The notes below the pieces were generated by a model, which saw nothing but the letters and a program-made list of their open reading frames with translations, did no database searches and was not told the origin of the DNA. A DNA stretch of 31,966 nucleotides from Phlegmacium glaucopus (lineage: Eukaryota; Basidiomycota; Agaricomycetes; Agaricales; Cortinariaceae), in the NCBI GenBank assembly GCA_015039465.1, contig MU130357.1, positions 521,847 through 553,812 on the forward strand, read 5' to 3'. Shown here piece by piece: positions 1 through 30,115 of the stretch. The translations under genes and the position numbers were made by a program. Each line of letters opens with the position of its first letter. Within the stretch, counting starts at the first letter, position 1.

Positions 1-198
1 ACATAGTAAGGAAATAAATAAAATATAGAGGCAATACAGGTATAATCATGAATTTGTGGGGGTCGGATCGTCCCTAGGGGTAGGAAAGGAGAAACCTAGG
101 GGACGATCCATTCAGTGAACATCTATAGAAAAGACTTTATAATAATTGAAACCTAGGGGACGATCGAACTGATTCAGTCGTAGCGTCAACGGGATTGT
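1..198. repeat. Mirrored first part of a solo chromovirus LTR
   Basis: Read backwards from 198, this begins TGTTAGGGCAACTGCG and follows the LTR at 10335-10747 base by base to ...GGAATGATACA at base 1. The next LTR bases, ATAATAATTAATT, are found at 2676. The piece therefore belongs with 2676-2890 as one 413-bp LTR. Its duplication GACTC is at 203-199 (read backwards) and at 2891-2895. The same sequence as displayed recurs at about 1507-1704, which is the mirrored 3' LTR, so the apparent direct repeat is simply LTR against LTR. Confidence 0.93.
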
Positions 199-590
199 CT
201 CAGGTCACTTTCATCTTTTTAATACGGACCTGACATACAGACCAGTGTCAGGCCGCCTGAAGGTGGCCTGTAGGTGACCTGAAAACTACCTTAAATCCCA
301 ATATAAATCTAAATCTCCAATCCGAATCCCAATATAAATCTAAATCCCGAATCCGAATCCCGAATCCTAATTATAAATCCCTACCCCTATAAAAGACAGG
401 CGCGCCATCGTGTAAGAATCCAATCCTCCCCTATGTCCGTACAAAACATGAAGGTGGTCTGAAGGCGGCCTGAAGGTGGCCTGAGACTGGCCTGAGACTG
501 GTCTGAGACTGGCCTGACAAGACCTCAGACGGTCTGAGACCAGTTAGGCCGCCTTAAGGCCGGTCTGTTACACCCCCTCACATTTCAGGA
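199..590. mobile_element. Mirrored part of a MULE-like MITE with internal short tandem repeats
   Basis: Read backwards from 590 the sequence opens AGGACTTTACACTCCCCCAC. This matches the terminal inverted repeat of the element at 20913-21429 (CTTTAC then CTCCCCCACA). Inside are arrays of an approximately 11-bp unit (TCCGGTGGAAG-like) and runs of CCCTAA-type sequence that only appear after un-reversing. The element continues across the inserted solo LTR to 2891-3000. It sits in the integrase gene: TGGCGGAGTG flanks it at 600-591 (read backwards) and at 3001-3010. A 9-10-bp duplication suggests a Mutator-like transposase acting in trans. Confidence 0.75.
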
Positions 591-600
591 GTGAGGCGGT

Positions 601-1291
601 GTGTCGTGGGTGGAAAGGAGGATCTGAGGTCTGTTTAGGGGACTTACCCAAAACTTGGCTCGGTTGGCCTTAGGGTTTACCTCAGGCAATTACTTAAGTA
701 CCTTACTTACGTCTTGTGGGATCTACTTCGCTTTCGTCGTGACCAGTTCAGATTTCTGCTGTACCGTTCTATAATATTAGTCTTTTCCTGAAGTCGTGGT
801 CTTATGTTTGGCCCTCTGTTTCATATGGACCTACGGTCGCTGTATGTTTGTTGTTCTGGTAGGTCCTTTAACAGGGTAGCCGTGGATCCGGGGAAAGGTT
901 AGCTTCTTGTTCAGTCGTTGTTACGAATGGCTGAAGTTGAAGGGAACAGGTACTTTGCTGAGGTAGGTCAGAAATTGCATCAGTTTGACTGAGGTCGGGG
1001 TTATCTGGACTAGGGACCTTCTGCGTAAGGCTGAGGAGGTGAAGGCCTTTAGTAACTGCCTCTTCTCCTTACCCAGTAGCTCCTTTAGGAGTTGTCGTCT
1101 CAGTATTTGTCCTCCAAGGCTATGGAGCAGTTTACCGTTCTGAAACCTTAGTTTGTATTGTGGTATGTACGGGGGTTTAATCAGTACCTTAAGGTGTTCT
1201 TCATGGGGTCTCGAGGATTCGTGTAGTCCTACCGGTTTAAGTTTGTCAAAGGAAAGCACGACCCTACAGTGGATGACTTCCCCCCCTACCT
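601..1291. pseudogene. pol: Mirrored chromovirus integrase C-terminus and chromodomain
   Basis: Complementing this interval without reversing it gives a long open frame. It starts with the integrase tail (HSAT, then FLLD), passes through the typical KPGDKVYLDA and RLHPVFNVVKL segments, and enters a chromodomain with EEEWVIEEIL and RFRYLVKWQDF, then HAPKLVMEF and KHIRM. Chromodomains steer integration of chromoviruses to heterochromatin. A few residues after the KWQDF motif (WEP-like) are missing. Two in-frame TGA codons stand where arginine is expected (before MGFEP and before MQNTL). A polypurine run with seven G residues lies at 1277-1291, directly before the 3' LTR. Upstream integrase coding continues at 3001-3716 on the ordinary minus strand, beyond the inserted MITE and solo LTR. 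Confidence 0.9.
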
Positions 1292-1704
1292 ACAATCCCC
1301 TGTGGGCTGAAATTGGGTTTGGAGTTGGAATCTTGGTATGTGGGACGGAAAGGCTGCTGGAGGCTGGAAGGCAGGTTGAGGCGAAGGTAGTGGACAACTG
1401 AGGCCTTGGGGTATCAAGGCGAGGCTGAGGTTAGGAGGTAAAGTGAGGTAGAAAATAAAGATAAAAAGTGTAATATGGTGAAGAATAAATTAATTAATTA
1501 ATAATAGAATAGTAAGAAAATAAATAAAATATAGAGACAATACAGGTATAATCATGAATTTATGGGGGTCGGATCGTCCCTAGGGGTAGGAAAGGAGAAA
1601 CCTAGGGGACGATCCATTCAGTGAACATCTATAGAAAAGACTTTATAATAATTGAAACCTAGGGGACGATCGAACTGATTCAGTCGCAGCGTCAACGGGA
1701 TTGT
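1292..1704. repeat. Mirrored 3' LTR of the chromovirus, 413 bp
   Basis: Read backwards from 1704 this is a complete 413-bp LTR, TGTTAGGG...CCCCTAACA, colinear with 10335-10747 and, in opposite orientation, with 11491-11903. It adjoins the polypurine tract at 1277-1291. The outer flank read backwards is CTTCC (1709-1705). The outer flank of the 5' LTR is CTTCT (10748-10752). These look like the original 5-bp target duplication with one transition. Confidence 0.92.
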
Positions 1705-2644
1705 CCTTCTAGTATGGGTTATCGTTATATATTAGGTACCTATAAAAATTCAGTTCTGGTATATAGAATTCTTATTCTTACTGGTTCTAAAGTCACGGAG
1801 TTTTGGACAAAATGGTAGAGAACTTGCATTCTTACTGTTTCTAAAGTCGTGAAATTTTAGACAGAATAGTAGTTTTAAAGGAGGTCTAGGGGGAAGTCGT
1901 AGAAATTAACTCTTTTAACAATTTCCGAAAACATTTCTGTGATATGGTTTGTTTAATCAACTTCCTCCGACGTGACAAACACCAGTTAATCACGGAGAAT
2001 TGTTATACGAAGAAAATTGACTTTAACTAACGCTAAAAGTTATAAGATAGTGGACCATTGTAACCAGTTGTACTTTCTGATGTGTGTAGTCTGGGCTAAA
2101 ATGGCAATTTTCCAGGTTATAATCGACTTTTAACAGTTGTATATACGTTTAGAACAGTTTGGAAAAACTTTTTTCCATTTTTTGGTGGAGTTAGAAACCG
2201 ATTAAGAAAGACCTATCCACGTCATGGTAGCCATAATGTTCTGGATTGTAAACGTCTTTTTTATAACTATAGTTCCTAAGCTGTATTGTCTACAGATCAG
2301 GTTCAGAGTAGTCCTGTACGTTTTTACTAACGGTTACATTATTACAAAAGATTGGGGTACCATTTTCAAATAGTACGTAATGGAGGGTCGGCTGTTCTAT
2401 AATTACTTTAAGACCGCAAACATAAAGTTCCTGGATAGTTCGGGTGACTACTACTGTAATTTGCGTGTGGTTACGATCATGCATCTTTATTACATTTTTT
2501 ACGTAACCTTACCAATTTTAATTTAGTACAACTGATATTTCTAGAAAGATAAAGAGAACTTTTAGAATTATCAATAGGAGATCGTCCTCAGGGTCAACTT
2601 TAAGTTATAAGTTATAGACTAGGTTTAACACCTTTATTTTGTTA
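1705..2644. pseudogene. Mirrored Helitron-associated DUF6570 protein, 3' truncated by a MITE
   Basis: The complement read left to right encodes a protein with strong similarity to DUF6570 proteins found with fungal Helitron helicase-like genes. It has a CTVCGQL zinc pair near the N-terminal side and CKSC further on. Then come LANSFWIGAVP, FAEKILISRIRHNRC, KVYHALPPS, RTPMLVRRN and ALEWLKLNH. An intron-like break with a GTAACA donor lies between ITW and SDP. The frame stays open until about 2644, where a MITE terminus cuts in. No catalytic domain is visible here. In related elements Rep and helicase functions lie downstream. I recognise the family from memory of conserved motifs and could not run a search. 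Confidence 0.85.
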
Positions 2645-2675
2645 TGAAATGTCAGGGGGTGGGAAAGGTGAACCT
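2645..2675. mobile_element. Mirrored MITE terminus
   Basis: Read backwards from 2675 the sequence is CCAAGTGG, then GTGGGGGACTGTAAAG. This is the inverted terminus shared with the elements ending at 2996 and 21429. It interrupts the DUF6570 frame. The rest of this copy would lie outside the window. Confidence 0.65.
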
Positions 2676-2890
2676 ATAATAATTAATTAATTAAATAAGA
2701 AGTGGTGTGATGTGAAAAATAGAAATAAAAGATGGAGTGAAATGGAGGATCGGAGTTGGAGTGGAACTACGGGGTTCCGGAGTGAAGCAGTGACGGAAGC
2801 GGAGTTGGACGGAAGGTTGGAGGTCGTCGGAAAGGCAGGGTGTATGATTCTGAGGTTGAGGTTTGGGTTAAAGTCGGGTGTCCCCTAACA
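2676..2890 (-). repeat. Second part of the split solo chromovirus LTR
   Basis: In normal orientation, this matches the last 215 bp of the LTR at 10335-10747 and ends GTGTCCCCTAACA at 2890. It begins abruptly inside the LTR because the mirrored block ends at 2675. With bases 198-1 it forms a complete 413-bp LTR. The flanking GACTC at 2891-2895 matches the other side exactly, so this is a solo LTR inserted into the MITE. Confidence 0.9.
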
Positions 2891-3000
2891 GACTCTCACT
2901 GGACTTTTACCGGAATTTTACTGGAGTCTGCTGGACTTCTGCCGGACTTTTGGCAGTCTGGTGGACTCTGGCTGGACAACGTGGGGGACTGTAAAGTACA
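2891..3000. mobile_element. Right part of the MITE inside the integrase gene
   Basis: About 100 bp of an 11-bp-like tandem unit (CTGGACTTCTGCCGG variants) ends in GTGGGGGACTGTAAAGTACA, the inverted terminus of this MITE family. The left part is mirrored at 590-199. The flank TGGCGGAGTG at 3001-3010 is duplicated on the other side. Confidence 0.75.
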
Positions 3001-3716
3001 TGGCGGAGTGGACATGATTATTGTACTGGAATTCCGCAAGAGGAAGGAGTTTGGCCCAATTGGTTTGTTGCTGGTTTGTAAAGAGTCGGAGATACTGTTC
3101 CAGCTCCTGATTTACTCATTCCGCCTGGCCGTCTCCTTGCGGATGATAGGCGGTGGTGGCTGCTAACTTAATTCCGAGGATCCGGTAGAGCTTGCGCGTG
3201 AATTCTGCTACAAACTGTGGTCCTCTGTTTGATACCACTCTCTGGGGTAGTCCATGATGTTTCCAGACATGTTGGATATAAAGGCGAGCGGTTCCGGACG
3301 CGGAGGTGGTAGTAAGGGTTGGTGCAAAATGAGCTCGTTTGGTGACCGAATCAACTACCACCATCACCGAGTCGTATCCTGAAGACTCTGGAAGTTCCAC
3401 TATGAAGTCCACACTAATTGTGTCCCATGGAGCGTTTGGAATTGGGAGGGGATGGAGTTCGCCGACTGGGTGGTGTCTTTGAGCCTTAGTCCGAAGACAC
3501 AGGTCACAGGTTGAGGCATATTTTCTGATATATCGGGACATCTGTGGCCACCAATAGTTTCGGGATACAAGTTCAAGGGTCTTCCATCTTCCCAGATGCC
3601 CAGCGATTAGGGTGTCGTGGCAGAGGGATACAATCCATCTTCACAAGTCAAACATGTCCAGAATGTAGATTTTTCCTCGGAAAGAGAGGATGTCGTTGGT
3701 CATGAGACCATTCTGC
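3001..3716 (-). pseudogene. pol: Chromovirus integrase, N-terminal zinc and catalytic part
   Basis: From about 3716 the frame begins AEWSHDQ, continuing the RNase H end beyond the solo LTR, and carries a frameshift near 3650. The zinc domain follows (LCHDTLIAGHLGRW, then CDLCLRTK). The catalytic core has FIVELPESSGYDSVMVVVD and ends YHPQGDGQAE at 3119. The second catalytic aspartate is replaced (SNRGPQF where SDRGPQF is usual), which should abolish strand transfer. A TGA at 3118-3116 follows QAE where arginine is expected. The frame then resumes [12 protein letters not shown] to HVHSAM at about 3001, where the MITE enters. The remaining C-terminus and chromodomain are mirrored at 601-1291. 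Confidence 0.9.
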
Positions 3717-4607
3717 TGATGTACCTGCGGTGGGATCAGACCGCAAGTAGTAACATAGTTCAGAGGGGTTAATGTAGTTTTCCTCGATAGAATTTAAAGA
3801 GAAGTTCACGGTATTGAAATACGCAAGAAGAATAGGTCGCGAAGATAGCGAAGTTCGCGAACGAGAACACAGTGCGCAAAGTAGCTTAAAGAATGAGACT
3901 ATTGACTTAGAACATTGCTGCAAAGTTTATGGGATCAAAACTCTGGCCGTCTCTTGTTCACCTGGCCTTACAGGTACTTAATATGAGAATAATAAACTAA
4001 CCAGGTGCAGATATGCAAAACAGTAATGTAAAAATTGAGCTAATGCGAAGTCACATGGGCCCAGTAGTTTGGTAACAGAGAGATAGGAGATAAAGTAAAA
4101 ATAAAGGTGATGAGTAAGGAGGTCAGTTGAATGACCTCCTGTTTTGAAAGAATGATAAAAATATATATATGGAAAGATGAAAGAAAGTAAATGCAAAACA
4201 ACACGGACCATTGATAAAACCAATGCATGGAGAGGTAAGGAATGCGTATGTGAACCATGAAAGACCGCGAGATTAGATAGTGGCTGTGCGAAGATGCGGC
4301 TGCAAAGGAGTGAATATGGCTAAGTCCACTGTGACTAACGAGAGCTGTAGATATGTTGAAGTATCAAGTGTGAAGAGGAATGAGGGTACTTTGAATAGTT
4401 ATGAGGGTCGTAGAGGTGATGTGCGAGACATGTGCTAAGAGTAGGCAATATAGTAGGACCTGCAAATGATAGTGCGAGGGTTACTGACAACCGCGGCCAA
4501 GAATGCGAGTGATAATGGTAACCGCGAGGTATCCGCGAGTGTCTGCGAAGTTGTTAAATCGCAAAAATAACCTATTTACAAACCTAGAGGTTATATGGAT
4601 CCTATCA
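3717..4607 (+). mobile_element. Solo LTR, 891-bp TGATGTACC family, inserted in pol
   Basis: The sequence begins TGATGTACCTGCGG and ends GATCCTATCA. A near-complete copy lies inverted at 19920-20793, and a 5' fragment at 20993-21176. The flanks CTGC (3713-3716) and CCGC (4608-4611) form a 4-bp duplication with one transition. Removing the LTR rejoins RNase H (RSA) to AEW of integrase, which confirms the limits. The LTR is rich in GCGAA and CGCGAA motifs. No internal coding is present, so it is a solo LTR by recombination. The autonomous parent is not in the window. Confidence 0.82.
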
Positions 4608-4611
4608 CCGC

Positions 4612-5996
4612 CGATCGGACGGATTGTGTGTGAGTGGTTTTCAACTCCTTTACCACTTTAGCTATGGCCTCTTCTTTTCCACCTTCATGGGTACCTTTCC
4701 GGATGTCTTTCAAGATGTCTCGTTCTTCTCCTATGACTTCCAGTCCTTCTAAGGCCCAAATCACAAAAAAGCCTGGAGTTAGGAGTGTGATGTTGTTATT
4801 GTCACCAGTTCCGGTTCCGTGATCCACTTGTCTGGACAAGGCGTCCAGTTTTCCCATGCTCTTGCCTGGTCTGTGGTGCATGAGGAAATCAAACCGGGCT
4901 AGGAACAATGACCAACAGGCTTGTCTCCGATTGAGCTTTTTGGCTGTCATGAAGTATTCCAAGTTCTTGTGATCAGTCCAGATCTCGCACTTGTGTTCTG
5001 CTCCTTCGAAGAAGTGTCTCCACTCTTCTAGAGCTTGGATGATCACTAGCATCTCTTTGTCGTGGATCTCATAGTTCCGTTCGACCAGAGATAAGGATTT
5101 AGACAGGAACACAACTGGGTGCCATTTCTCATCATCGAGGGATTGTTGGGAGAGTACAGTTCCAGTTGCAAAATTGGAACTGTCTGCTTCGATGCAGAAT
5201 GGCCTGGAGTTGTCCGGAGAGGCTAGAATTGGGGTTGAAGTGATCAGGTTCTTGAGAGAATTGAACACCAACTGCTCTTCCATATTCCATCTCCATTTAA
5301 TGTCACTTTTGGTGAGATCAAACAAGGGACGGGCATGATGAGAAAAGTCTTGGATGAACCTTTGGTAAAAGTTGGTGAAGCCTAGAAATGACTGGACTTC
5401 CTTTTTGTTTGTTGGAATTGGCCATTCCGCTACTCCAGCAACTTTTACAGGGTCCATCTTGATGGAGTTATGAGATATTATGACTCCAAGGTATTCCACC
5501 TTGGTGTGTTCAAATTTGCACTTGTCTGGTTTTAGGAAGAGTTTATACTTCCATAAAAGTTCCAGTACTCTCTGAGTTATGGACCTGTGTTCCTCTAGTG
5601 TCTCCGTGAATATCAGGATATCGTCAAGGTAGACCACTACAACCCCTTCCATTATGAGCTCACGGAAGATGTCATTCATCATTGTTTGGAAAGTAGCCGG
5701 ACTGTTGGTGAGGCTGAAGAACATAACCAGGGGTTCAAATAATCCCCGGTTAGTTTGGAAAGCTGCTTTCCATTCGTCCCTTCCTTCATTTGGACATTGT
5801 TAAAACCCCATTGGATGTCCAACTTAGTGAAATATTTAGCGCCCCGGAGTTGGGTAATCAGTTCCAAAATGAGGGGAAGTGGGTACTTGTTTTTGATGGT
5901 GATTGCATTGAGAGCTCGATAGTCCTGAACAAGCCAAAGACTTCCATCTTTCTTTTTAATAAAGAAAACCGGAGATGCCATTGGAGATTTGGAAGG
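4612..5996 (-). pseudogene. pol: Chromovirus reverse transcriptase and RNase H
   Basis: RT begins at about 5996 with [18 protein letters not shown]. It has the LDIQWG and TNRGLFEP regions and the catalytic VVVYLDDILIF, followed by the thumb (FLGFTNFYQRFI). RNase H follows with EADSSNFATGTVLSQ, HDKEMLVII and WTDHKNLEYF. The tether ends at TQSVRSA beside the solo LTR at 4607. A one-base deletion at about 5783-5790 (in KEG-DEW) shifts the frame, so the domain appears in two overlapping frames. It is otherwise typical of Ty3/gypsy RT-RNase H in length and motif order. The enzyme copies the element RNA inside the Gag particle. Confidence 0.93.
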
Positions 5997-7061
5997 TCAG
6001 ATGCATCTGGAGTTTAAATTCTCCTGGAGGAACATGTCAAGTTCCTTTTGTTCTGTCGGAGCTAGAGGATAGACCTTGCAACCTGATGGTTTTTCTCCCA
6101 GAATGAGTTCTACTGCGTGGTCCCAAGGTTTCGGATCAGGTAGGATATCAAAAGATTCTTTGGCAAAAACACTATCAGATTCTCGGAGATAATCCAGAAC
6201 TCCTTCTTTTGTTTCAGATTGTGTGTTGCGCTGGAAAGCTTCTGCAAGACATTGGGAGATGGTGGAGGTGGCTTGGATATCTGCCTGCAGTGGTAGTAGG
6301 CTGGTGGCAAATATTCTGTCACCATCCTCAAATTCAGGGTTTGGGCTACTTTCCTCCTCGTCATCCTCATCACAATCCTCTACATGAGCCAGAAGTGGGC
6401 TGGTTGAACATTTTTCAATTTGGTGTATTTCTGCCTTTTGAATTTTTTGTTCCTCTCGGATCTCATTCCTGCATTCTGAACAACAATGGGGTGGACAACG
6501 GGACATTTTTACTTCTCCGGTTGCCCAGTCAATCTCTGGGTTGTGCATCTTAAGCCAGGAATGTCCAAGAATCAAGGTTTGTTTTCCCAGTCCAGTGACC
6601 GCGAACAAGGATCTCTTGGAATGTCCTTTATACCTGAGTATCAGATCAACCACTTCCGTGATTGATCCGGCTTCATTCGGAGTACCGTCAATGTTAAATA
6701 CCGGAATCAGATTTGACAGGGACTTTGTTGTGAGCCTGTTAGTTTTGACATAGTCTCTGTCAATAAACCTTCCGTCGGCTCCGGAGTCTACTAAGGACAG
6801 AAAGGAGTTTACTTCTCTGGTGTCGGTCGTCTCAATGCTGACTTTGAGTTCCAGTGATTTAGAGTCAGCATCGAGGGAGCCAATAGTGAACTTTTTCGGG
6901 AGGGTTCTTTCCCATTGGGGTTGGAACACTTGGATTTTTTTTGGATTTTCTGATGTTTGTACAACTTGAATGTTTTCAACCATCTTGTTTATTTCATCAA
7001 TGCTATCTACATGTAAAACAGAGAAATGGTTGGTCGTTGACAGCGAGGGCATGCAGTTCAC
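5997..7061 (-). pseudogene. pol: Chromovirus protease region and linker to RT
   Basis: The frame starts near 7061, overlapping the end of gag in the -1 frame, as in elements that make Gag-Pol by -1 frameshifting. A retropepsin fold is indicated by FLSLVDSGADGRFID, with the single DSG active-site motif expected for a homodimer, and LILGHSWLKMHNPEIDW downstream. An acidic linker (DEDDEEES) leads to PLAPTEQKELDMFL. The stop at 5999-5997 is TGA in RCI*PSKSP, where arginine is conserved. It is in frame with RT, so protease and RT were once continuous. The upstream part (about 7061-6900) is likely the end of the Gag-derived spacer. Confidence 0.9.
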
Positions 7062-7402
7062 TCACTGTTTTGGCAAAAATCCTTTAAATCATTGGTCTGA
7101 CTTTCATGTTCAGTGTTCTCTGAAGGTTCCGTCAGTTCCGGATCAGGTACTTTGTCATATTTGGCCAGCTGGAACTCCAAGAGGGTATGGAGTTTGTCAT
7201 TGGTCATTGTTCGGATGTCGAAACATTTTTTGCAATGTCTCTCAATGTGTCCGATGCCTCCGCACCAGAAGCATGACAGTGGTACAGAGCCTGCTTTTTG
7301 GGCCGCATCAATGTCCATAGGTACAGGGTTTCCCGGAGTTGGTATGAGGTGTGTGTTCCTCTGTGGTGGTATTGATGGATTGAATTGGAGTGTGGTGGTA
7401 CC
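7058..7402 (-). pseudogene. gag: Chromovirus gag, nucleocapsid part
   Basis: This is the C-terminal piece of gag, separated from the capsid part at 9389-10225 by the element at 7403-9383. It contains PVPMDIDAAQKAG, then one CCHC knuckle (CFWCGGIGHIERHC, spacing C-x2-C-x4-H-x4-C) that binds element RNA. It ends in an acidic tail at 7058. The preceding coding (about 7402-7319) is in the same frame and joins across the insertion when one GTACC copy is removed. Confidence 0.9.
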
Positions 7403-7731
7403 TGTTAGGGGACACTCATTGTGTCCGCCCCTAGTTACGCTTAGCTACTCATACTTTCACTTTCACTCTATGATCATATCACTTGCCATGTTCCCCAGGC
7501 TACCCTTTATGGACTCCCTCTTATTGTTGTAGTAGTTGACACTTCACCGATGACATCGTGAGATGTCAGTTTATATTCTTGTACTTATCACACGCACCCT
7601 ACCTTCTATTACACCCTAGCCGTATATAGTCATATTGGCTCACACACTTGTAGTATATAGGTGTAAAGTGGTTATCGAAGATAACCACCTTAGAATTCAA
7701 CTTGGTTCCCGGGTCTTTACATTCCCTCACA
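7403..7731 (+). repeat. 5' LTR of the KH element
   Basis: It spans TGTTAGGGGACAC to CATTCCCTCACA. The last bases differ by one from the 3' LTR (CCCTAACA). It contains a TATA-like GTATATAG at 7653-7660 and a perfect 9-bp-stem hairpin at 7669-7689. Confidence 0.93.
7653..7697 (+). promoter_or_regulatory. Putative core promoter, hairpin and transcript start of the KH element
   Basis: A TATA-like GTATATAG (7653-7660) lies about 27-30 bp before a segment, ACCTTAGAATT (7687-7697). That segment is perfectly complementary to the site just after the LTR. Between them GTGGTTATC-GAA-GATAACCAC (7669-7689) forms a perfect hairpin. The spacing would place the RNA 5' end at or next to the complementary segment, as in Tf1. 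The start site itself is inferred. Confidence 0.5.
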
Positions 7732-7732
7732 T

Positions 7733-7743
7733 AATTCTAAGGT
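7733..7743 (+). promoter_or_regulatory. Candidate self-primer binding site of the KH element
   Basis: AATTCTAAGGT begins two bases after the 5' LTR. It is an exact 11-nt complement of LTR bases 7687-7697. It lacks the TGG expected at a tRNA 3'-end primer site. The layout resembles Tf1 of fission yeast, where the mRNA 5' end folds back as primer. Confidence 0.55.
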
Positions 7744-7946
7744 CTCTACGAGCTCGCCCCTCTCTAGCCTGCTCCCCACCCCCTACTCCAGTTCCTGCTG
7801 CCCTATAGCAACTGTTCTACAGTGCTATACCCGAACCCTACCCCGTCTTCGCATCGCTCTGTGTCTTTGCCAGTATCTAGTATCCATGCTCGTCCCTGTA
7901 CTTGCCAGGATCTACCTCCGCACTCATTCCTCCTTGATCAGACATC

Positions 7947-8756
7947 ATGCCTCTTACCCCTACTCCTACTGATGACCTCTCCTCTGTCCTTCGACAACTG
8001 GCCGACAGGCTAGACTCTCTAGAGGTCAGATTGGACCGCATTGAGGCCTCGGCAGGCCCCACAATTGCCTCGACCAGTACCCCTTTCCGTGGGTTTTCTG
8101 ACTTGCAGGAGGCATCCAAAGTCCCCCCATTTCAAGGGGCATTTTCTACCAAAGGCAAGGGTCGAGCTGACACTCCCCAAGCCCCTTCGAAGGCCAAGCC
8201 GGCCAAGAAGGAACGACCTACCAGAAAGGGTGCTATCTCTTACACCACCATCCCCCTCCCCCTTGCTCAGACATTCCCTATCGAGGGCAAGACCGATTGC
8301 CACCTTGTCACAGTGGTCATTCCTGACTCTGCTGCCCAGCACATTATTGGTCAGGGTGGTAAGGGCCTTAAACAGGTCCACAACATCTCTGGTGCTCGGG
8401 TCAACACTTACACTTTAGTGGATGGCCCCAATGATGAGCGCCACATCTCTATCCGAGGTACTGACCTCCAAATTGGTGATGCCCTAGTGGTATTGGGCAA
8501 ACAGATTGCTCGCAAGAAGGTCTGCCCCCCTAAGTTGAAGAAAACTGGCCCTACAAAGGGTTCAACTAATCCTGCCCACCCCAACCCTATCACCTCCTTG
8601 TCCCAGCGCCTGCCTCCCTTTTCTACTACCCAGTGCTCAGGACCATCTACCAGATCCCACATCGTTGAGATCCCTACTGCAGAGTTCCAAGCCAAGTCGT
8701 TTGGGACCAGAACTCCCCAGGGGACTGCTTTTGCCCCTACGGCGGCGATGGCCTAG
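7947..8756 (+). CDS. KH-domain (Gag-like?) protein of the non-autonomous LTR element
   Basis: This is a 269-residue intact ORF beginning MPLTPTPTDDL. Residues 9-35 form a likely coiled coil (LRQLADRLDSLEVRLDRIE). A basic, Pro/Ala-rich linker follows (KAKPAKKERPTRK, about residues 83-97). A type I KH domain spans about residues 118-192: VTVVIPDSAAQHIIGQGGKG holds the GXXG loop (GQGG), followed by LKQVHNISGARV and HISIRG. KH domains bind single-stranded RNA or DNA. The tail is Pro/Ser-rich and reaches a stop at 8754-8756. It is the only ORF of size in the element and lies where gag would be, so a role in packaging the element RNA is a reasonable inference, not shown. C-rich codon use contrasts with the AT-rich surroundings. 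Confidence 0.85.
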   Translation: MPLTPTPTDDLSSVLRQLADRLDSLEVRLDRIEASAGPTIASTSTPFRGFSDLQEASKVPPFQGAFSTKGKGRADTPQAPSKAKPAKKERPTRKGAISYTTIPLPLAQTFPIEGKTDCHLVTVVIPDSAAQHIIGQGGKGLKQVHNISGARVNTYTLVDGPNDERHISIRGTDLQIGDALVVLGKQIARKKVCPPKLKKTGPTKGSTNPAHPNPITSLSQRLPPFSTTQCSGPSTRSHIVEIPTAEFQAKSFGTRTPQGTAFAPTAAMA

Positions 8757-8988
8757 CTCTACACCCATCGTTCCTAGTGTCTCAATGGGCAGCCCCACCC
8801 CCTACCTTTCCCCCGAGTTGTTAACACCGATGCAGGTTGACGCACTTTGTCAGGGATCAAACACTCCCCTCCTTGGTCTGGCCTCGCTTCATCCTCACAG
8901 CATCGTCCCCTCTGAGTATGCGTACATCCCACCACGTCACAGCACTAATACTGCCCAGCGCTCCAGATCTGGACCCCCTGGAGGTTGA
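8745..8988 (+). pseudogene. Frame-shifted C-terminal extension of the KH protein
   Basis: From about 8745 the +1 frame stays open to 8988. It encodes Pro/Ser-rich sequence (STPIVPSVSMGSPTPYLSPE, then HSIVPSEYAYIPPRH) similar in composition to the tail of the KH protein. The KH frame stops at TAG (8754-8756) a few codons into the overlap. A single-base indel, or a programmed +1 shift, would add about 80 residues. Which of these applies cannot be told from one copy. Confidence 0.5.
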
Positions 8989-9040
8989 GGAAGACGGTAA
9001 ATGTTTTTGGAATCAATCATTCGTTGTGGACAACAAATCT

Positions 9041-9054
9041 TAATAGGGGGGTGA
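9041..9054 (+). promoter_or_regulatory. Polypurine tract of the KH element
   Basis: TAATAGGGGGGTGA abuts the TGTTAGGG start of the 3' LTR at 9055. This is the expected position and composition for the plus-strand primer of an LTR retrotransposon. Confidence 0.8.
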
Positions 9055-9383
9055 TGTTAGGGGACACTCATTGTGTCTGCCCCTAGTTATGCTTAGCTAC
9101 TCATACTTTCACTTTCACTCTATGATTGTATCACTCGCCGCATTCCCCATCCTACCTTTTACGGACTCCCTCTTATTGTTGTAGTAGTTGACACTTCACC
9201 GATGACATTGTGAGATGTCAGTTTCTATTCTTGTACTTATCACATGCACCCTACCTTCTATTACGCCCTAGCCATATATAGTTGTATTGGCTCACACACT
9301 TGTAGTATATAGGTGTAAAGTGGTTATCGAAGATAACCACCTTAGAATTCAACTTGGTTCCCGGGTCTTTACATTCCCTAACA
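9055..9383 (+). repeat. 3' LTR of the KH element
   Basis: This 329-bp copy is colinear with 7403-7731 and ends CCCTAACA, followed by the duplicated target GTACC. It repeats the TATA-like, hairpin and complementary segments of the 5' LTR. Confidence 0.93.
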
Positions 9384-9388
9384 GTACC

Positions 9389-10225
9389 GGTTGGTTGAGA
9401 AGTGGTTGCTGCTGGACTTTTGTAAGCTGACTGGAAGGCCTTGTTAGTGGCTCAGTTTTTGTCTATTGTCCGTGCCATTCTGTACCATCCTGTCAGATCT
9501 GTATTGGATGGTCTTCCGGAAGCCATTGTAGCAATGGAGTTCTGAATCTGGGCATTTAGGCCTCTTCGGAATTTTACTACAATAGTTTTCAGATCAGTGT
9601 ATCCAGAATCCGTGATTAGGTCTTGGAATTCATCTACATATTCTTCCAAGGACCGGGTTTTCTGGAAATATCCAGTTGATTCTAGTCGGTTGATGGCAAC
9701 CAAGTCCGCATTTGCGGGACAGAACTCTTTTTTGAAGTCATCTCAGAAATCAGACCAATCCAGGAACCGGGTTGACTGAGGGTTGTCCATTTCCCATTGG
9801 AAAACCCTAGCTGCCCACTTTGATGCTCTTCCGGATTTCATGTAGGACATGGCCCAGATAATTTTTGTTTGCTCATCCAAGAATTTGTTGGAACAGAGCC
9901 GGATGTACATTTGGCAGGAGTGAAGGAATGCTGTTCCTTTGGATGGTTCTCCATCAAACTCCGTTGGGAATGCCGGCCTTGCAGAGCGTGTCCAGGGTAT
10001 GTTTTCGGTTTGTGGGGGAACCTCTTGTTGTGGTACAGGTGATTGTACATTTGGAACAAGTCGGTGGATTGTCTCCATGATTCGGTCAAATCTGTTTTGG
10101 TATTTGATGTCCCGAGCTCGCAATAGGACGACTTCTCTTTCCAGCTGGGTGGTGCATTGATCGTCCATGGCTGATAGGAAGGAGCTGCTCAGAGATGCGT
10201 GCTGTGAAGACAAGGAGGGAGCCAC
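9389..10225 (-). pseudogene. gag: Chromovirus gag, capsid part
   Basis: A start at 10225 gives MAPSLSSQHAS, a coiled-coil segment (LEREVVLLRARD) and the typical capsid region (FDGEPSKGTAFLHSCQMYI, then WAMSYMKSGRASKWA and FQWEMDN). Two TGA codons interrupt the frame where arginine is expected: WSDF*DDFKKEF near 9743 and IDKN*ATNKAF near 9452. The frame then runs into the GTACC target of the KH element at 9388 and resumes at 7402. The product would assemble the cytoplasmic particle. Confidence 0.9.
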
Positions 10226-10334: not shown

Positions 10335-10747
10335 TGTTAGGGCCACTGCGAGGCTGACTTAGTCAAGCTAGCAGGGGATCCAAAGTTAATAATATTTCAA
10401 AGGGATATCTACAAGTGACTCACCTAGCAGGGGACCCAAAGAGGAAAGGATGGGGATCCCTGCTAGGCTGTGGGGTGTTTAAGTACTAATATGGACATAA
10501 CGGAGATATAGAATAAATAAAGGAATGATACAATAATAATTAATTAATTAATTAAGAAGTGGTGTGATGTGAAAAATGAAAATGAAAGACGGAGCGAACC
10601 GGAGGATTGGAGTCGGATCGGACTTATGGAGTCTTGGAGTAAACTGGTGACGGAAGCAGAGTTGGATGGAAGGTCGGAGGTCATCAGAAAGGCAGGGTGT
10701 ATGATTCTAAGGTTGAGGTTTGGGTTGAAGTTGGGTGTCCCCTAACA
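10335..10747 (-). repeat. 5' LTR of the chromovirus, 413 bp
   Basis: On the plus strand it runs TGTTAGGGCC to GTCCCCTAACA. Internal landmarks are paired CTAGCAGGGGA motifs and an AATTAATTAATTAA tract. The same-length copies at 1292-1704 (mirrored), 198-1 joined to 2676-2890, and 11491-11903 define its limits. CTTCT follows at 10748-10752. Confidence 0.95.
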
Positions 10748-11490
10748 CTTCTGTGATCTATGCACTAACTATCTTGTGATGATAATAGCCTTGATCTGAT
10801 CCTGTCTTGAATTGGAATGCGGTGTAGTTATTCTGTACTTTAGACAGTGTACATGTTGTCTTATTTTTGCAGAGGATGACCTTGAAATGATATTTTCTTT
10901 TAAATTGTACCATTGTTGTATTGATATATAAAGAAGATTTTTTTTTTATGCAAAAATGATTTAAATTGATTAGCTGAGTGTACTGATAGTAAGATGATAT
11001 AGGGTATTAAAGAATTTGGTGATACCTCTTGATGGTGAATTATGTTAGTCTCCTATCAATGTTCCATCATGATGTAGTCATTTTTTATCTTATCTTAGTT
11101 CAAGATGCTGACAATCCACATATTGTATGGTATTGTAATATACAGTATTATTTTACATAATTTATCAATATTTAAATGTCAACTTTTTTTGCACAGTCAA
11201 ACTCGAGTGACAGTCCTAAAGTCTCGGCTTTTCTCCAATACTAACTATTCATACCACAATCTCCTTAAAGTAGTACAAAATATGGTTCCTCAGCCAGTCA
11301 TGTTATTTTTATGATAATGAATGGAATCATATTTTAAAATCACAATTGTTTTTTATTGCACTTTTTTTGGCAATATATACAAAGTAAAATAATATTTTAT
11401 GCATGCGTTTTTCGGAATGCAGACACATCAGAGTTAAAACCATGCTTTTTTTCTGTATTTTTGAAGGAGGGCAATCAGAATAAGACAAGT
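10748..11490. other. AT-rich interval without a recognised gene
   Basis: This stretch flanks the chromovirus and so was once continuous with the Helitron-associated DNA at 1705-2644. It has T tracts (near 10930) and no frame with recognisable motifs on either strand. Confidence 0.6.
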
Positions 11491-11903
11491 TGTTAGGGGA
11501 CACCCAACTTTAACCCAAACCTCAACTTTAGAATCATACACCCCGCCTTTCCGACGACCTCCGACCTTCTGTCCAACTCCACTTCCATCACCGGTTTACC
11601 CCGGAACCCCGTAGTTCTGCTCCGACTCCGATCCTCCGATTCACTCCATCTTTTATTTCTATTTTTCATATCACACCACTTCTTATTTAATTAATTAATT
11701 ATTATCATATCATTCCTTTATTTATTCTATATCTCCGTTATGTCCATATTAGTACTTAAACACCCCCAGCCTAGCAGGGATCCCCATCCTTTCCTCTTTG
11801 GATCCCCTGCTAGGTAAGTCACTTGTAGATATCTTTTCTGAAATATTATTAACTTTGGATCCCCTGCTAGCTTGACTAAGTCAGCATCGCAGTTGCCCTA
11901 ACA
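11491..11903 (+). mobile_element. Solo chromovirus LTR, 413 bp
   Basis: TGTTAGGGGACACCC...GCCCTAACA is the reverse complement of the LTR at 10335-10747. It is bounded by a perfect 5-bp duplication, CAAGT (11486-11490 and 11904-11908). No internal sequence remains. It lies just downstream of the JmjC-like gene on the minus strand. Confidence 0.95.
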
Positions 11904-11977
11904 CAAGTTGGAACTATTATCTTCATTGTGTTCCGGTGCTGTATGAAAAAAATAAAATAGTAATGATCAATGTCAAA

Positions 11978-14900
11978 TTATGAAATGGATTCGAGATTGG
12001 AACATATACTAAATTGATCCAAATCAAAATGGCAATCAAGACCTGAAAAAAAATGTTGATCTGCAAGGTTTTTGCCTTCCTCCAATAAATCAACGATTGT
12101 GGAATTTTCCACGTTAGAAATTTCAAGTTCACTAATGGTGAACTCTGTGATGTCAAAATCAAAATCATCAAGTTTGGAGGGGTCTGTTTTGCTATGACTG
12201 ACTGTTTTCAGTGTAATAGACTGCCTTTTGCTTACCAGCTAGTTCCTCTTCATACACAACCTTCATCCCATCGTAATCAAATAGAGCATCTTGGACTTGA
12301 CATTTTACTTGATCAGGAGTACCAACACCTGCATGCCCACATTGCACGGCAGTACATTTGTAACGAATAATCTGATGTCCAATATGAACAATGAAAGGAA
12401 CAAAGATAGTCCTATATGGGTCAATGTTGTCCAATTCAACACTGGAGAAAGTGTGGTTTTCGAAGAGCCAGTTAATAAGGTTCCATGCAAGGCCTCGGGT
12501 ATAACACATGTGAAAATGTTCAATTACTGGGATAGCATTAAGATTGAAATGATCTTGGCAATGTTGAAGAGTGTTGGTGTCTTGACCATCAGAACCAGAA
12601 GGAAGTGTATATGTTCTTTCATCAAGAACATTTAAGAATATGGCTATTGCGAATAATGTGAAGAGGTCTTGAACGCCATCTAATGTTGACAGTGCTGGTA
12701 AATGAGCTCTGTCGCTAGAATTGTTAAGGATGAACACATTGTGGAAATAATGCACCAGACAATGGGCAAACATTATGAAAGGAGGTTTTTCTCCTTCTGT
12801 GAGAAGAGAAGGAAGAATGAATGTATGAATGGCACCGATGAGACTGTCTTGTAGGGTGTGTGTAGAAAGGTAAAAACCTCCTGTAATAACAGTATTTTCC
12901 ATTGTGACAATGACATAAGGAGTATTCGGTCTCAGGATTCTATGATAAGGGTTTTTTTAATTAATTCTATTCTGAATATATAAGGGTACTTACAGGTGAT
13001 TTCCTGGTTCAAGATAAATCACTTCAAGTCCATTTTCAATGCAGAAAACAGGGTCCATTTGATCAAATTCCTGAAGATAATGGTTCCATCAGGTGAAGAA
13101 GTCGACATGTCCATCCTTGTCCATGAGATTGGGCATGGCTATGATTAGCCATTGTCTTCCAGATCGAATATTGAAAAATGCTCCAAAGCCAGCTGGTACA
13201 ACACACCAGAACTGAATGGCATTGGTAGTTGATAGCTCAGTCCATCAAAGTAGTGATTGTTTCGTTGTTTCATCTTGAACACAATATGGTTCAGACAATG
13301 TATCCTGCCAGGCAACATGATCAGATGAGAAAGGAGATGATTCAATGCCAGAAAAGGACCTCATGCGAACAATAGAAAGAATATTTGAGCTTTCGGTTTC
13401 CAGATTGTTGACAAATTGTTTTAAAGTTCTTTTCTTTATTCTTGGTATGTCTGAAGTGGATTGATCTTGAAAATCAATGAGTAAAAAAAAAAAGTATTTA
13501 AAATATGATATTATCATACCTTCCATGTTCACAACTTCTTTCAGACCGTTCAGAGTTGCCAATCCACGATGATCGCATGGAATATTAGGAAGGTTATAAT
13601 TCTCAATGATGATGTGATGGGAATGAAGTAATTTTTGAAAGTCATGCGGTGTCATTTCTTGCACAATTTCATGTGTCAATGTCATTATAGCAGATGATTC
13701 AGGATTTTCAATGTTAGCTGGATAACTGCTGCTTATAGCAAGAGAGAATTTGTCAATGGCAGCAATTGTGCATTCTGACTACAGGTTAGTAGAAATGGGA
13801 TAGTCAGAATAAACTTTTAAATGGAATCTAAAAATTTTGTATGAATGAAGATATTATTTGTTCTTGAAGTTCACCATTTATATTGAAGGTAGAAATTTTA
13901 GTTGAAAATGTGGGAGCAGACGTCATCTAGCATAATTCAATAAATTGAACAAATATATTATTTTTATTTTGCTGGATCAGTTACCTGTTCTGCTAGAGGA
14001 TATATCTCTGAAGGCGTATTTTTTGGTGCCTTAGATCGTGTTAGATCAATTATTAGCTATTAGCTGAGATGAGAATGTTACCAATAAGTCTTCAAGATTG
14101 ATATTTTCAAATTTTACATATGTGTTTCCGATGATAAGTGGAAGATGCTTCGGTGCAGTCAAAATTGTTTGCTGATGAGAAAGGAAAGAACATTGTGATG
14201 TCCATGAGATGGAGACAGATCATGTCTTGTTCTTTCTTTTTTTACTTGCATTTGCTTTATGAGCAGGAAGAGCTGAAGAATTTGTAGGTTTGTGTCTTGT
14301 GCGTCTTGGTATTGTAATGTCAGGAATGGATTTATCATTGCCATTGCTTGAATCATGTTCCCTATCTGTAAGGTCATCTTTGTTGGTGGCTGGAGCAATG
14401 ATTGTACTATCTGGAAGCAGGCGTTGTATAGAATCCTCGTTAGTGTTATCTGCAAATATCAATATTTATGATGTACTATATAAGATATTGTGATTACATA
14501 CCATTTTGATCTCCTGGTGAATTTTGCCACGGTAAAGATACAGGTTGCTTGAGCTTGATCTTATTAGGTGCGAGTATTGAAGCAAGTGGCCAGTCAGTAG
14601 GCATGGATCCGTCTTCAATATTGAGGAAAGATAAATGAACAGTTGTGTTTCCCTTATCGTCTGGTGTTTCTATATAAAAGATGTTAGATACCTCTGAAGA
14701 AATAGAATTTGTTCATACCAAGCATGAACCAAGATTGTATTTCTGGTTCTACGTCATTGAATGTATTTGGGATGAATCCAACAATGTTTGATGCAGCATC
14801 ATAAATTGTTTGGTATCCCAGTGCAACATTGATCAGCTCCTCCCAGATTTTTTTCTCAAAGTGAGAAATAACATGTGGATGTTCGTTACCAAGCACTTTA

Positions 14901-16990
14901 GAATACTGTATAATGGCAATAATGTTATTTGCATCTTAATGTTTAATAGATGAACACATACAAGAGAGAGTTTGTATCGTTGGACATAGAAGCTAGAAAG
15001 GTGAATCTGTGCTTCTTGGAGAAGGAATATGGGACTAATAAGAAGGGTGACTTGAAGTGGGAGATTGTTAAGTTTAAAACAAAGGAGTCACGTCGGAGTA
15101 ACACCAGATTGGACAGAACAGAACCGGAACAAGTAACGGAAAGGACTTTGGCCTCAGCATATGTGCTGTGCCACCCAGCTCCTACAATGTCCTGATTTCG
15201 GAACCAGAAGAGAACAGAAAGACAGAAGACCTCAGTGACTTAGAGGATGAACAAGAGGAGGAAACTAAGATGATATTCGAACTGAGGAAAAACATACAAG
15301 TTTGAGTACTTAAATATAAAAGGAATTGCAACCAAAATATAGAATATAAATATGAGTGCTGCATTCTGCTCCTGGAAAAGGTCCTGCATTCTTGGGTGAA
15401 TAATCCATGGCTGGTGTGCTGACTGATAGTGGGAAAGTGATGACAAAGAAATAGTTGTTATGGTGAAGGTGTGGTAATGGGTTTGGGATATTGTTGGAAG
15501 AGTTGGAATGATACGGAGAAGTCTTGGAGTTGGACGTAGAAGGAGTAGAGTTGGAAATAAGGAAAGTACTGGAATGGAGTACAGACTACTGGAAACAACT
15601 CCAACGGAGTCGGACTGGAGTAATGTATGACAGAATGTAACAGAGATGGAGATTATTGATTTTTTGATTATAACTGGTCTTTTTCATCATTGTTGGAGAC
15701 AAACATTGTTCTATTGATATAATTGTTTTTGAAGTGAGGACAAAATAAAAATTAATCAAGTATGACTGACAGTGTAGTAATATCTTTGAACACTTCCAAC
15801 ATTCCAGGTAAATCAGGAATACTCTGCAGAATAGTAAATTGAATGGTCGCAATAATTATAGAGTATTAATTTTGATAGTACATACAATAATATCAGGATT
15901 ATGATCCAACATAAACACAATGTGTGTGGCAGCAAGTTGCATATTAAAAAGACTTTTGTCCACAGCTATATTTGAATGCAATTGGAACAAAGCATGTAAT
16001 TGTTTTATGGGAAGATCCATGGAAGCAACATTAACACTTGTTTTTGCCTTATGTGTGGTGAAGTTATGACAAAATTTTCTCAATATTGAGGTCCAATTGC
16101 CCAGTGTACACAGAACTTTCTGTTTCTCATAAGGACAATTCAGAATAAAATCAGCAGATTACTTACCTCATGTTTTGTAAAATCAACTTTCATTTTCTTG
16201 TGCAAAGGAGGAAGGAGTAACATGTTTTCTGTCACTTCCAGACTGGATATGACATCTAAAAGCCGATAGGCGCTCAATAAGCTGCAAAATTCATTTCCTT
16301 TCTCTTTTGTTTTTAACAATGATGCTTCTCACTTTGAAATTGCAGTAGGGGATAATGCCGACATTGAATCAATGTTCACCACTCATAATAGTGCTTTCAA
16401 CAACAAATTGTGAATGCTTTGTGATTTTAGAAAGGTGTCATAACAATCAACTGAGCCTGCCAAACCCTAATATTGAAAGATGGGTATGAATTATCAACTT
16501 GTAACCAATAAAATTTCAATAATGTACAAGTGCATAGTGTGCATTTCCAAATTTATCATAAATTGATGTTGGTACCATTGGCAACATGGAAACAAAGTAA
16601 GAAGCAAAGATTGAACTCTGAGTGAAAGGTCAATTACTTGATGTTGATCTTCAGAGTTTTTGTTGGTTGTGAGTGCAGGGCAATCTAGTTCCATAGTAAT
16701 ATCTACATTGGTATTCAGTAGCTCTTGAGGGTTAATACAGAATTGGCTAGTATTAATGTCAAAGGGGGGAGATGATGTTGGATGATTATTGTGGAGGACC
16801 AGAGAATGAGGGGGCTGAGGACATTGGGCCTGGTTTTGAGAACTAGTATCAGTTGATGAGGAGATTAAGTTTATGTTCAATGGACTAGACACTGTGATTA
16901 TAATGATGAAAATATTTCAATGTAAAAATTTGAGTGGACCTACTTTATTGACTGATCTGAAGCAGAGCAAGTTGATCTTTTCAATTTTCT
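11978..16990 (-). pseudogene. JmjC-like (cupin-fold) multi-exon gene, decayed
   Basis: Many short exons can be chained on the minus strand, for example 13778-13520, 13465-12994 and 12939 to about 12237, with GT-AG introns of about 54 nt. The core reads AIQFWCVVPAGFGAFFNIRS, GRQWLIIAMP, NGLEVIYLEPGNH, then ILRPNTPYVIVTM and GGFYLSTHTLQDSLIGAIHT. This matches the JmjC-like proteins abundant in agaricomycetes. The Fe(II)-binding HxD is absent (FNI), and the usual TPH histidine is tyrosine, so demethylase activity is unlikely even for the intact ancestor. A basic patch (KKRKNK) lies near 14225. N-terminal exons reach about 16990. TGA stops replace arginine at 13091-13089, 13247-13245, 14222-14220 and elsewhere. 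A solo LTR splits it at 15066-15642. The last exon ends at 11978 with an acidic tail. Confidence 0.65.
15066..15642 (+). mobile_element. Solo LTR, TGTTAAG family, CpG-depleted copy
   Basis: TGTTAAGTTTAAAAC...GAATGTAACA is 577 bp, with a perfect 5-bp duplication GAGAT (15061-15065 and 15643-15647). It is homologous end to end with 28507-29100. Most CpG sites kept in that copy are TpG or CpA here. It lies inside the JmjC-like pseudogene. Confidence 0.9.
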
Positions 16991-18148
16991 GTTGTGTTAA
17001 GGGTAGGCTTAACCCTTAATCTCAACATCCATCAACACAAAGAAGTACATGGATATAGTATGGTTATAAGCACTAAACTTTCTCAATACTCGATAACCTT
17101 TAAGCTTTTCTTCATTTACATAAAAATATGATTCACATCAATCACCTATGGGTCCAACTATGGTAAATATCAGCACACTATCAGATAAGATAATGAGGCC
17201 CAATAACCTTGAAACATTACATTATTTTGCCTAAATTATGAATTGAATTGATCAGTGGTATATCTCAATGGATTTAGAACAAATTGATAGTGATTTGTGT
17301 ATCTATAACTTTCCATCCGGTGATATATTTTTGTCTAACTATACTTTGCCTTTTTTAGATTGTTGGATTGGACCATGAGATCATAGAGAACTAACAAGTA
17401 CATTTTTTTGGTCTTTTTCACATATTTACTACTGGCTCTTGAGTTCTTCTCATAGTCAGTCTGATTCAGACATTATTCAATCTTCAGTAGGAATGGACAA
17501 ACATATATAAACATATGATTGCCAGTGATTGATTGTTGATGGGTATTTATACATAAGAGTCAAGCTGTATTTATACTTTTTAACATTTCAAGAGACTGAT
17601 ACAACTATTTGTCGATAGATATCACCAAAACATCATTTCAATTTTTTACTATCATAGAAGTGATCCTTGGCAAAAATTTGACCAACACAAATTCTCTGAA
17701 CTGGATAAAAATAAAAATCTGTACCGCATGTTCTATAGAACAAATGAGCTTGTTTTATCAACCATCAGAATAGCCAAACTGCCAAACTATTCAACAATAA
17801 GGATAAAAACAGATCACAAAACACTCGAAGTCTTGTAGATTCAATTTGATATCATTCTTTTATGTGCTTCAAACCATTCTCAATCAGGTAGTTCTTTCAA
17901 TCATAGATTTTGATCAAGATGGAATTAACAAACAATTGCAATGACAAAACCAGCAATAACTCTTTTGGAAAGGTTGAAGCCGCTAACAGGAGGTTGAAGA
18001 TGTTAACAGGCCTTCAAATCATTGATGTGTAATTGAAACACAGTCATTATGTAACACTGTTTCATAAAAAACAGGACAAGACATAATGTTATTTTTATTT
18101 TTTCCTATCATGTATATAGTTCCGTGGCAGAAAATTAGGAAAATTTTC
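16991..18148. other. AT-rich spacer without a recognised gene
   Basis: No ORF of note and no motif was recognised. One inverted repeat stands out near 16995-17020 (TTAAGGGT then ACCCTTAA with a short loop). It lies between the divergently oriented JmjC-like gene and the zinc-finger gene. Confidence 0.55.
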
Positions 18149-18625
18149 TAGCAGCTAGACCTTTTCGGAAAGGGCTAGCACAACAGAAATCTCGCAAGAA
18201 TTTTGTTGTTTGCCAGAAAATTGAAAACTGACAATGGCAAAAAGTAGATAAGACAAATCAGAAAAATTTACTAGCAACTAGAGCTCTTTGCAAGGGGGCC
18301 CTAGCACAACATAAATCTCCCGAGAATTATTGTTGTTTGCTAGAAAACCTAAAACGGACGACAGCAAGAAGTGGATAGGAGAAATCATCAACTTTAGTTT
18401 ATTAGCAGCTAGAGCCCTTCGCAAGGGGGCCCTAGCACAACAGAAATCTTGCAAGAACTTTTGTTGTTTGCCAGAAAACTGAAACGGACGACGACAAGAA
18501 GTGGATACATCAACTTCAGTTTATTAGCAGCTAAAGCCCTTTGCAAGGGGGCCCTAGCACAACAGAAATCTCGCAAGAATGTTTGTTGTTTGCCAGAAAA
18601 CCAAAAGCTGACGACAATAAGAAGA
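18149..18625 (+). repeat. Four tandem copies of a hairpin-forming repeat, period 122-131 bp
   Basis: Units start near 18149, 18272, 18403 and 18525 with TAGCAGCTAGAGCCC or a variant. Each unit holds one inverted repeat (GCTAGAGCCC ... GGGCCCTAGC). A second follows (CACAACAGAAATCT, AAGAA, TTTTGTTGTTTGCC). Then comes a less structured stretch including GGACGACGACAAGAAGTGG. In unit 1 the first stem has different bases (CTAGACCTTT/AAAGGGCTAG) but still pairs, which hints that structure is kept. No coding is apparent. The array lies about 150 bp upstream of the zinc-finger gene. Confidence 0.75.
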
Positions 18626-19919
18626 TGAATGGAGTCAAGTTTAAACTGACCTAAAGTAGCAGAATATTCAACATGTCACATTATTTATTTCTCACACAAT
18701 CAGATCATAGATAATGATTTGAATGCGTCACACGATCAGATTAAATGTAGATAAAGATTTGAATGAAATGTTCAGACCCTCATGGCTTCTGTTCCCATTG
18801 TCCACCATACATTCCATATTAGAAATGCCCTCGTTTCCTACAAGAATACCTGTGGCAATAGCGCACCCAGGACTACCATCAAAGGACAAACTCAAGTTAC
18901 AATTGGGAAAACACCAAAGTTTAAAAAGGTAGCTGCAACCAACGATGTAGATACTGGTGTTTTGTTGTTCAAAATGGAAGGGGAACGAATACTGCCTGGA
19001 AGTGTAAGTGTTTTGTTACTTTATTTCATTGTTTGGTACTCATCATGTCATGTTGCTTGCATTTCTGAATTAAACAATATTTCTAGTGGTGTAGCGGCTG
19101 TCAAAATGGTGGTACAACAATCCTCTGTACTTTGTGTCAGATCAACTCAATATGCACGGAATGTATTGACCTTGAATTGGAAAAGGATGATCCTGACCCT
19201 ATCCCATTTGAATGTCCGTCTTGTTTCTTGAAGAAAAATAAATTTGGCGAATTTGTGCATTGATCTTAAAATATTGATTATCTGTTGATGTGAATACATG
19301 TTTTAGCCATTTAAATTCCATAGTACCTCATCAACTAGACAGAATTGGCCTCAGGTTCTAACCACACCACTCGCAATTATCTCAATCTACCTCAAAGGAA
19401 TGAACGACACACCTAATGTCATCACCTATTATCATCTTCTACCCTGGCTTCAGGGGAATCTTGTCCATGTCAATCTAGATTTTAGTTTCCAAAGCTCGGA
19501 CAATGATTTTGAGTCTTGTTTAAATACAATGTTGGATAGATTTGAATTTGGTGACCTAAAAGAGTATGTAAAATCTCAATCTCAATATGCTTCATTCTAA
19601 GACCTTATGATCCAGATGGTGTTGCTTTTTGATTTTTATAACATCACATTCTGATCCAAACACTGGATACATACACATAGGACCCAATAATATTGGATCG
19701 GTTCCAATTGAAGAGGTATAAATTTCAATTTTTAAACTTTAAAATTTAAGCAACTTTTCTGAAATTGTAACTTTAGCTTTTAAATGTTGTTTTTTCAACA
19801 CACTTTCAAAATATTTTAAGATGTAGCGATTCAAACATTCTGAGTCTCCTCTCCTGTGGTGCTCTGTCAACTTGCAAAGACTCCAAGGGAGCAGTTAAGG
19901 AATTTGCAAACAGGTACGA

Positions 19920-20793: not shown

Positions 20794-20912
20794 ATGATAC
20801 TTTCCATTTTTTAAAACATCTGAAATATAATTCAACAGAGAGTTATTTGGCAAAATCATATGTTTTGATCAACCCAACTTTCAAACATTTTTCATCCATG
20901 GATTTGTGAGGT

Positions 20913-23408: not shown

Positions 23409-23435
23409 AAAAAAAAAAAAAAAAAAAAAAAAAAA
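23409..23435 (+). repeat. A27 tract
   Basis: Twenty-seven consecutive A bases are followed by CTATCC. A second tract of the same counted length lies at 30085-30111. No retroposon body can be recognised upstream of either. Confidence 0.9.
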
Positions 23436-23479
23436 CTATCCTGGGTCCTCTGCAGATCCCTACATTTGCGTGGTAAAAG

Positions 23480-23700
23480 CGCCAAAGTGTTGGAAACGTC
23501 ATATGAGCGCCTACGAGTGTATAGTAACGCCTATGAACGTCTAGTAGCGTCCAGTAGCGTCTAGTAGCGTCTAGTAGTGTCGCTAGTAGTGCAGTCGTCA
23601 TAGTAGTTGTGTATGAGCGTCTAGTAGCGTCTTGTGAACGTCTAGTAGCGTCTGTGAACGTCAGTAGTGGTTATAAGCGTAATAGTAAACGTCAACGGTC
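23480..23700 (+). repeat. Degenerate minisatellite of a GTCTAGTAGC-like decamer
   Basis: Repeated GTCTAGTAGC units and variants (GTCCAGTAGC, GTCTAGTAGT) with GAACGTC and GAGCGTC spacers run through about 23520-23680. The array is CpG-containing and non-coding. Confidence 0.75.

Positions 23701-30111: not shown

Positions 30112-30115
<4 letters not shown>

Follow-up and report, generated by a model that had tools for sequence, protein, structure and literature searches.

Results

The window analysed here is the whole stretch of 31,966 nucleotides at C125:521847-553812 of the Phlegmacium glaucopus assembly, a source genome of 60.5 Mb in 259 contigs. The source record holds the same letters; the locus fetched from it is identical to the window, with stretch L004 corresponding to window 1-10000. 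A run of 2,405 N (C125:519442-521846) lies directly left of window base 1. The window harbors copies of an element whose LTR is 413 bp long, has TG...CA ends (TGTTAGGG...CCCCTAACA) and is present at least twice in the genome. Alignments place full-length ordinary copies of the LTR at 10335-10747 on the plus strand, which served as the reference copy, and at 11491-11903 on the minus strand. LTR positions 199-413 occupy 2676-2890 on the plus strand and represent the end of the original right-hand contig. Pieces of reverse transcriptase and RNase H are found at 4591-5721 on the minus strand (RVT_1, E 2.3e-18; RT_RNaseH, E 2.6e-32).

Positions 1-2675 form a distinct block. Thirteen stop-free pieces of at least 50 aa from its ordinary strands matched zero families above cut-off, one sub-threshold hit being to DUF2507 (E 0.059, 13.8 bits against a cut-off of 35). 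Profile searches identified two open frames in the complement reading of the block. The frame at 708-1412 (235 aa) matches SH3_Tf2-1 (E 1.8e-18, 66.8 bits against a cut-off of 30) and Chromo (E 2e-5, 24.9 bits, just below the 25.1 cut-off), and is predicted to be the C-terminal part of a Ty3/Gypsy-type integrase. The frame at 2019-2675 (219 aa) matches DUF6570 (E 1.3e-39) and is truncated at the block's gap end. When the block is reversed without complementing, it contains a full LTR which, aligned with window 10335-10747 (+) and 11491-11903 (-), agrees at 90-94% of the 413-414 columns. In the alignments a mirrored full-length LTR, positions 413 to 1, lies at 1292-1704, and a mirrored partial LTR, positions 198 to 1, lies at 1-198. 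An earlier examination of the letters, hereafter the sequence-only reading, had claimed that reading the block backwards yields correct LTRs, a DUF6570 protein and an integrase with chromodomain, and that neither ordinary strand does so. Each of these claims is borne out by the searches except the chromodomain, which falls just short of its cut-off; SH3_Tf2-1 in the same frame is well above its own.

The composition of the block is likewise that of mirrored DNA. When the block was compared with the rest of the window in four forms, 25-mers were shared only by the reversed form (125) and the complemented form (266), with 0 for the block as is and 0 for its reverse complement. The dinucleotide skews of the block have the opposite sign to those of the surrounding DNA. 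Scored by 5-mer likelihood, ordinary over mirrored, the block gives -50.8 as is and +50.3 when reversed. Among 103 held-out windows of 2,675 bp each, which overlap, the median was +40.4 and the value was below zero in 3 of 103. The two lowest of these three lie inside stretch L011, which is mirrored as well, and the third, at -2.4, lies in stretch L014 and contains an A25 run. Four-form k-mers, LTR match, domains and likelihood confirm the central claim of the sequence-only reading that 1-2675 is the mirror of real sequence.

The source of the block is found across the gap. The reversed block is identical to C125:516914-519441, the last 2,528 bp on the other side, at 2521 of 2528 positions (99.7%) with no indel. 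The same comparison gave 675 matches for the block as is, 1 for its reverse complement and 643 for its complement. A complement standing in place, with the order of bases kept, is ruled out by a score of only 643/2528. Past the match to the far contig, the reversed block continues for 147 bp, which correspond to LTR 52-198, and window 2676 resumes the LTR at 199. Two alignments put mirrored LTR 198 at window 1, and reversal of the block in place joins LTR 198|199 at window 2676. The right edge was set at 2675/2676 by the two stricter alignments and not by BLAST with looser gap costs, in which the ordinary LTR alignment enters the block by 12 bases (start 2664). Because the reversed form matches the far contig end and the LTR then resumes at 199, the block at 1-2675 is best read as a leftward extension of the right-hand contig, which starts at 2676, across the gap, written backwards; correctly read, it would bridge the gap. 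Far-flank match and k-mer likelihood both assign it as a mirrored (reversed, uncomplemented) gap-flank extension. The sequence truly absent between the contigs amounts to 147 bp, for which a run of 2,405 N is too long.

The window contains two further mirrored blocks. The second, at 23436-24257 with an approximate right edge and a length of some 0.8-0.9 kb, was identified by mirror homology and k-mer likelihood; positions 23435-24174 mirror-match window 3717-4137 and 19920-21066 at 70-86%, and the likelihood is negative across about 900 bp. The third, about 185 bp at 30112-30296, is the mirror of a repeat also present at 28756-28938 and 15310-15486, and from 30297, no more than 1-2 bases off the expected position, this repeat carries on in the ordinary reading. 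Runs of 27 A at 23409-23435 and 30085-30111, both on the plus strand and each directly before one of these blocks, were found by homopolymer scan; each is interpreted as a placeholder of 25 bases lengthened by adjacent A.

A genome search with the mirrored LTR gave 41 matches, full-length and fragments, including 2 in the block at 1-2675. For the mirrored LTR all 40 of 40 candidates were scored, and for the ordinary LTR 40 of 723 first-look candidates. The surrounding DNA was inspected for 15 of the 41 mirrored matches, which represent 13 places (8 initial and 5 probed; 2 matches shared blocks). All 13 of 13 places in this sample of the mirrored copies have either an N gap or a run of 25-26 A no more than 4.1 kb away. 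N is within 1.4 kb at ten places and 4.0 kb away on C109, and the stretches around the mirrored LTRs of C105 and C24 lack N and have an A25 and an A26 run, respectively, within 1 kb. Confinement of the fault to the right side of gaps is excluded by blocks left of N on C147, at C125:44.8 kb, and on C241 (L029), C128 and C61. On C201 (L040) the DNA on both sides of N is mirror-related to other DNA.

Seven other blocks likewise become continuous when reversed in place, either to the base or with an offset of 1-2 bases. Such reversal joins LTR 96|97 on C147 and LTR 103|104 on C148, brings LTR 413 to the next internal base at C125:44.8 kb, and gives continuity within 1 base on C198 and within 2 on C188; the remaining two are the third block of the window, at 30112-30296, and the fatty-acid-synthase site described below. 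Sequence from across the gap is present in the fill at C125:505.5 kb, where the terminal 50 bp of the far contig recur (50 columns at 94%), and in the C24 fill, which carries the far contig end (46/47). The C147 far flank has the LTR alone in common with its block, and for C198 and C148 no source was seen in the far flanks, where the stretches examined are all N.

Mirrored DNA also occurs outside this LTR. At C125:4.3 kb (stretch L016), beside a fatty-acid-synthase frame, an A25 run is followed by a 199-bp mirror of 3195-3393 (198/199) and then by an ordinary copy, which is a repeat of 3394-4127 (733/734); the whole site spans C125:3195-5217. In-place reversal gives the join 3393|3394. The best relatives of the encoded protein are fatty acid synthases, some labelled 'fungi type', at up to 95% identity. 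By these alignments the site is a putative false duplication of a contig end, outside mobile DNA. A mirrored stretch without N occupies L011:6001-10000, beginning at about C125:447.8 kb and reaching at least 451.8 kb. Its reversed reading contains a 491-aa frame in which 400 residues score as Plavaka transposase (E 1.1e-96); the two longest ordinary frames of the stretch have 110 and 109 residues. No copy of the far flank of this L011 block turned up in a self-mirror search of its surroundings.

Runs of A are strongly strand-biased. Across the genome, 157 runs of exactly 25 A lie on the plus strand and 1 on the minus strand; for A runs of 18 or more the counts are 334 and 38, respectively. A homopolymer scan of 267,851 fetched non-N bases, from loci that in part overlap (thresholds A/T at least 16, C/G at least 14), listed 10 runs at 9 distinct sites, all of A and all 25-27 long save one of 18. 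Seven of the nine sites adjoin mirror-related DNA (L007, L016, C105, C24, C188, and window 23409 and 30085). The A27 run of L011 (7679-7705) falls inside the Plavaka stretch, and the k-mer likelihood is negative to either side of it. For the run in L014, the k-mer signal is weak and confined to the left side. Since natural homopolymers should be strand-symmetric and the ratio at exactly 25 is 157:1, most A25 runs are likely 25-base placeholders written as A. Natural poly-A is ruled out as the source of most A runs by the same asymmetry. T runs of at least 18, of which there are 38, may be natural.

Segmentation of C125 covered six gaps with both flanks inside the 10-kb stretches examined. It calls one flank mirrored at three gaps and none at the other three, which indicates that the fault is conditional. 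One of the three mirrored flanks, in stretch L013, is weak and has no homology behind it. This flank, L013:5628-7674 (C125:559440-561486), lies to the right of the gap that follows the window and has a k-mer likelihood of -15. This segmentation was too blunt for edges, and block edges were taken from alignments. It was trained on a set that included the mirrored stretch L011, and it labelled L024-L027 as ordinary, missing mirrored parts that are evident from homology.

Discussion

The results presented here reveal that the block at 1-2675 is an assembly artefact and no real biological feature. We consider it very likely, with a probability of about 94%, that the block is a mirrored copy of the neighbouring contig end beside the gap, likely arising from a strand fault in gap-filling. 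Mirrored gap-flank blocks are systematic within the assembly. The sequence-only reading had favoured an assembly or file-handling fault over a biological inversion. This is borne out, and the fault can now be narrowed to a flank extension that was written backwards into the gap, of a kind found beside many gaps. If an extension X were built from the other strand, as rc(X), a routine that only complements would turn it into reverse(X). Alternatively, a leftward walk left unflipped would also give reverse(X). A mirrored extension has no findable overlap with the far flank, so a gap that it bridges would look open or overfilled, and would have been left either as N or as a 25-base placeholder that was afterwards written as A.

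Flipping of whole contigs without complementing at scaffolding, the block being the end of such a contig, would likewise be expected to leave mirrored sequence next to gaps. However, the mirrored pieces are only about 0.2 to 4 kb long, turn ordinary at a definite base where there is no gap, and repeat the end of the far contig, all of which makes a flip of this kind improbable. An edit of a single stretch, deliberate or accidental, introduced either into the source file or during preparation of the window, would be enough to explain one mirrored block in one window. This is very improbable given that the genome record has identical letters and that many other contigs carry mirrored blocks. The location of these blocks beside N gaps and A25 runs also speaks against the deliberate edit that the sequence-only reading had entertained.

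A real mirror duplication, in which an unrecognised process copied DNA in parallel orientation beside the original, would place the block near its source, where it is indeed found, differing at 7 of 2,528 bases. Yet base pairing is antiparallel, and we know of no process that makes mirrored (reversed, uncomplemented) DNA. Moreover, the blocks end at N gaps or at A25 runs of one strand, and in-place reversal restores continuity to the exact base, which a duplication does not need. A real duplication is therefore scarcely credible. The suggestion that the block, if real, would be without precedent finds nothing in its favour, since the sequence of the block is that of the neighbouring contig end and continuity returns once it is reversed in place. 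A gap-flank extension written backwards by a gap-filling step is the reading adopted in what follows.

False duplication of contig ends is a known kind of error in draft assemblies. The block resembles it in that both sides of a gap carry the same contig end. It differs in that one copy is mirrored, so that ordinary searches miss the duplicate. A literature search of partial coverage found no report of mirrored gap fills. Among gap-filling programs, PBJelly is described as extending flanks, using a gap unit of 25 N, and leaving overfilled gaps whose extensions together exceed the gap yet lack identifiable overlap (PMC3504050). The gaps of the present assembly are like the partly extended and overfilled gaps of PBJelly in flank extension from either side, leftover N, a putative 25-base unit, and extensions that add up to more than the gap with no overlap to be identified, but here the extensions are reversed without complement and the 25-base placeholders read A, not N. 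No such strand fault is described in the passages of PMC3504050 consulted. In a second report, PBJelly fills average 88.6-95.2% identity on simulated reads (PMC8848313). Use of PBJelly on raw reads would fit poorly with this figure because the fill identity of 99.7% in the present assembly is higher. The described behaviour of PBJelly appears to fit in kind only, and PBJelly is left as a candidate for the program used here.

The fault has practical consequences. The block is biologically nothing and offers no basis for a story of mirror DNA. Genes and repeats within mirrored blocks cannot be read, contig ends are falsely doubled, the fatty-acid-synthase locus included, and gaps already crossed by data stay open in the assembly. 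On balance, we lean towards the view that a strand fault in gap-filling put mirrored DNA and A25 placeholders at well over 100 sites in this assembly and in public assemblies made alike. If true, mirrored fills are invisible to ordinary searches, and a scan of mirror likelihood together with a test of A25:T25 asymmetry would expose them. These two signs, the k-mer likelihood of the reversed reading and the A25:T25 asymmetry (157:1 here), are cheap to use in screening assemblies.

Finally, the content of the block, where pieces only were examined, shows nothing unusual when read backwards as part of a Ty3/Gypsy-type LTR retrotransposon. It is like such elements in the 413-bp TG...CA LTR and the Tf2-1-like SH3 domain, as well as in the reverse transcriptase and RNase H within the window. 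A literature search on DUF6570 found no paper. One LTR family is present in several copies around the gap, at L003:6039-7595 and at window 2676-2890, 3001-7061 and 10335-11903. A single Ty3/Gypsy-type element, copied in nested or tandem fashion, probably accounts for them. Elsewhere in the window, a 269-aa frame at 7947-8753 (+) contains a KH_1 domain (E 4.6e-8). The region from about 10700 to 18700 is AT-rich, with 35-37% GC, and CpG is strongly short relative to GpC (log2 -0.9 to -1.9); this CpG-poor region perhaps consists of mutated repeats.
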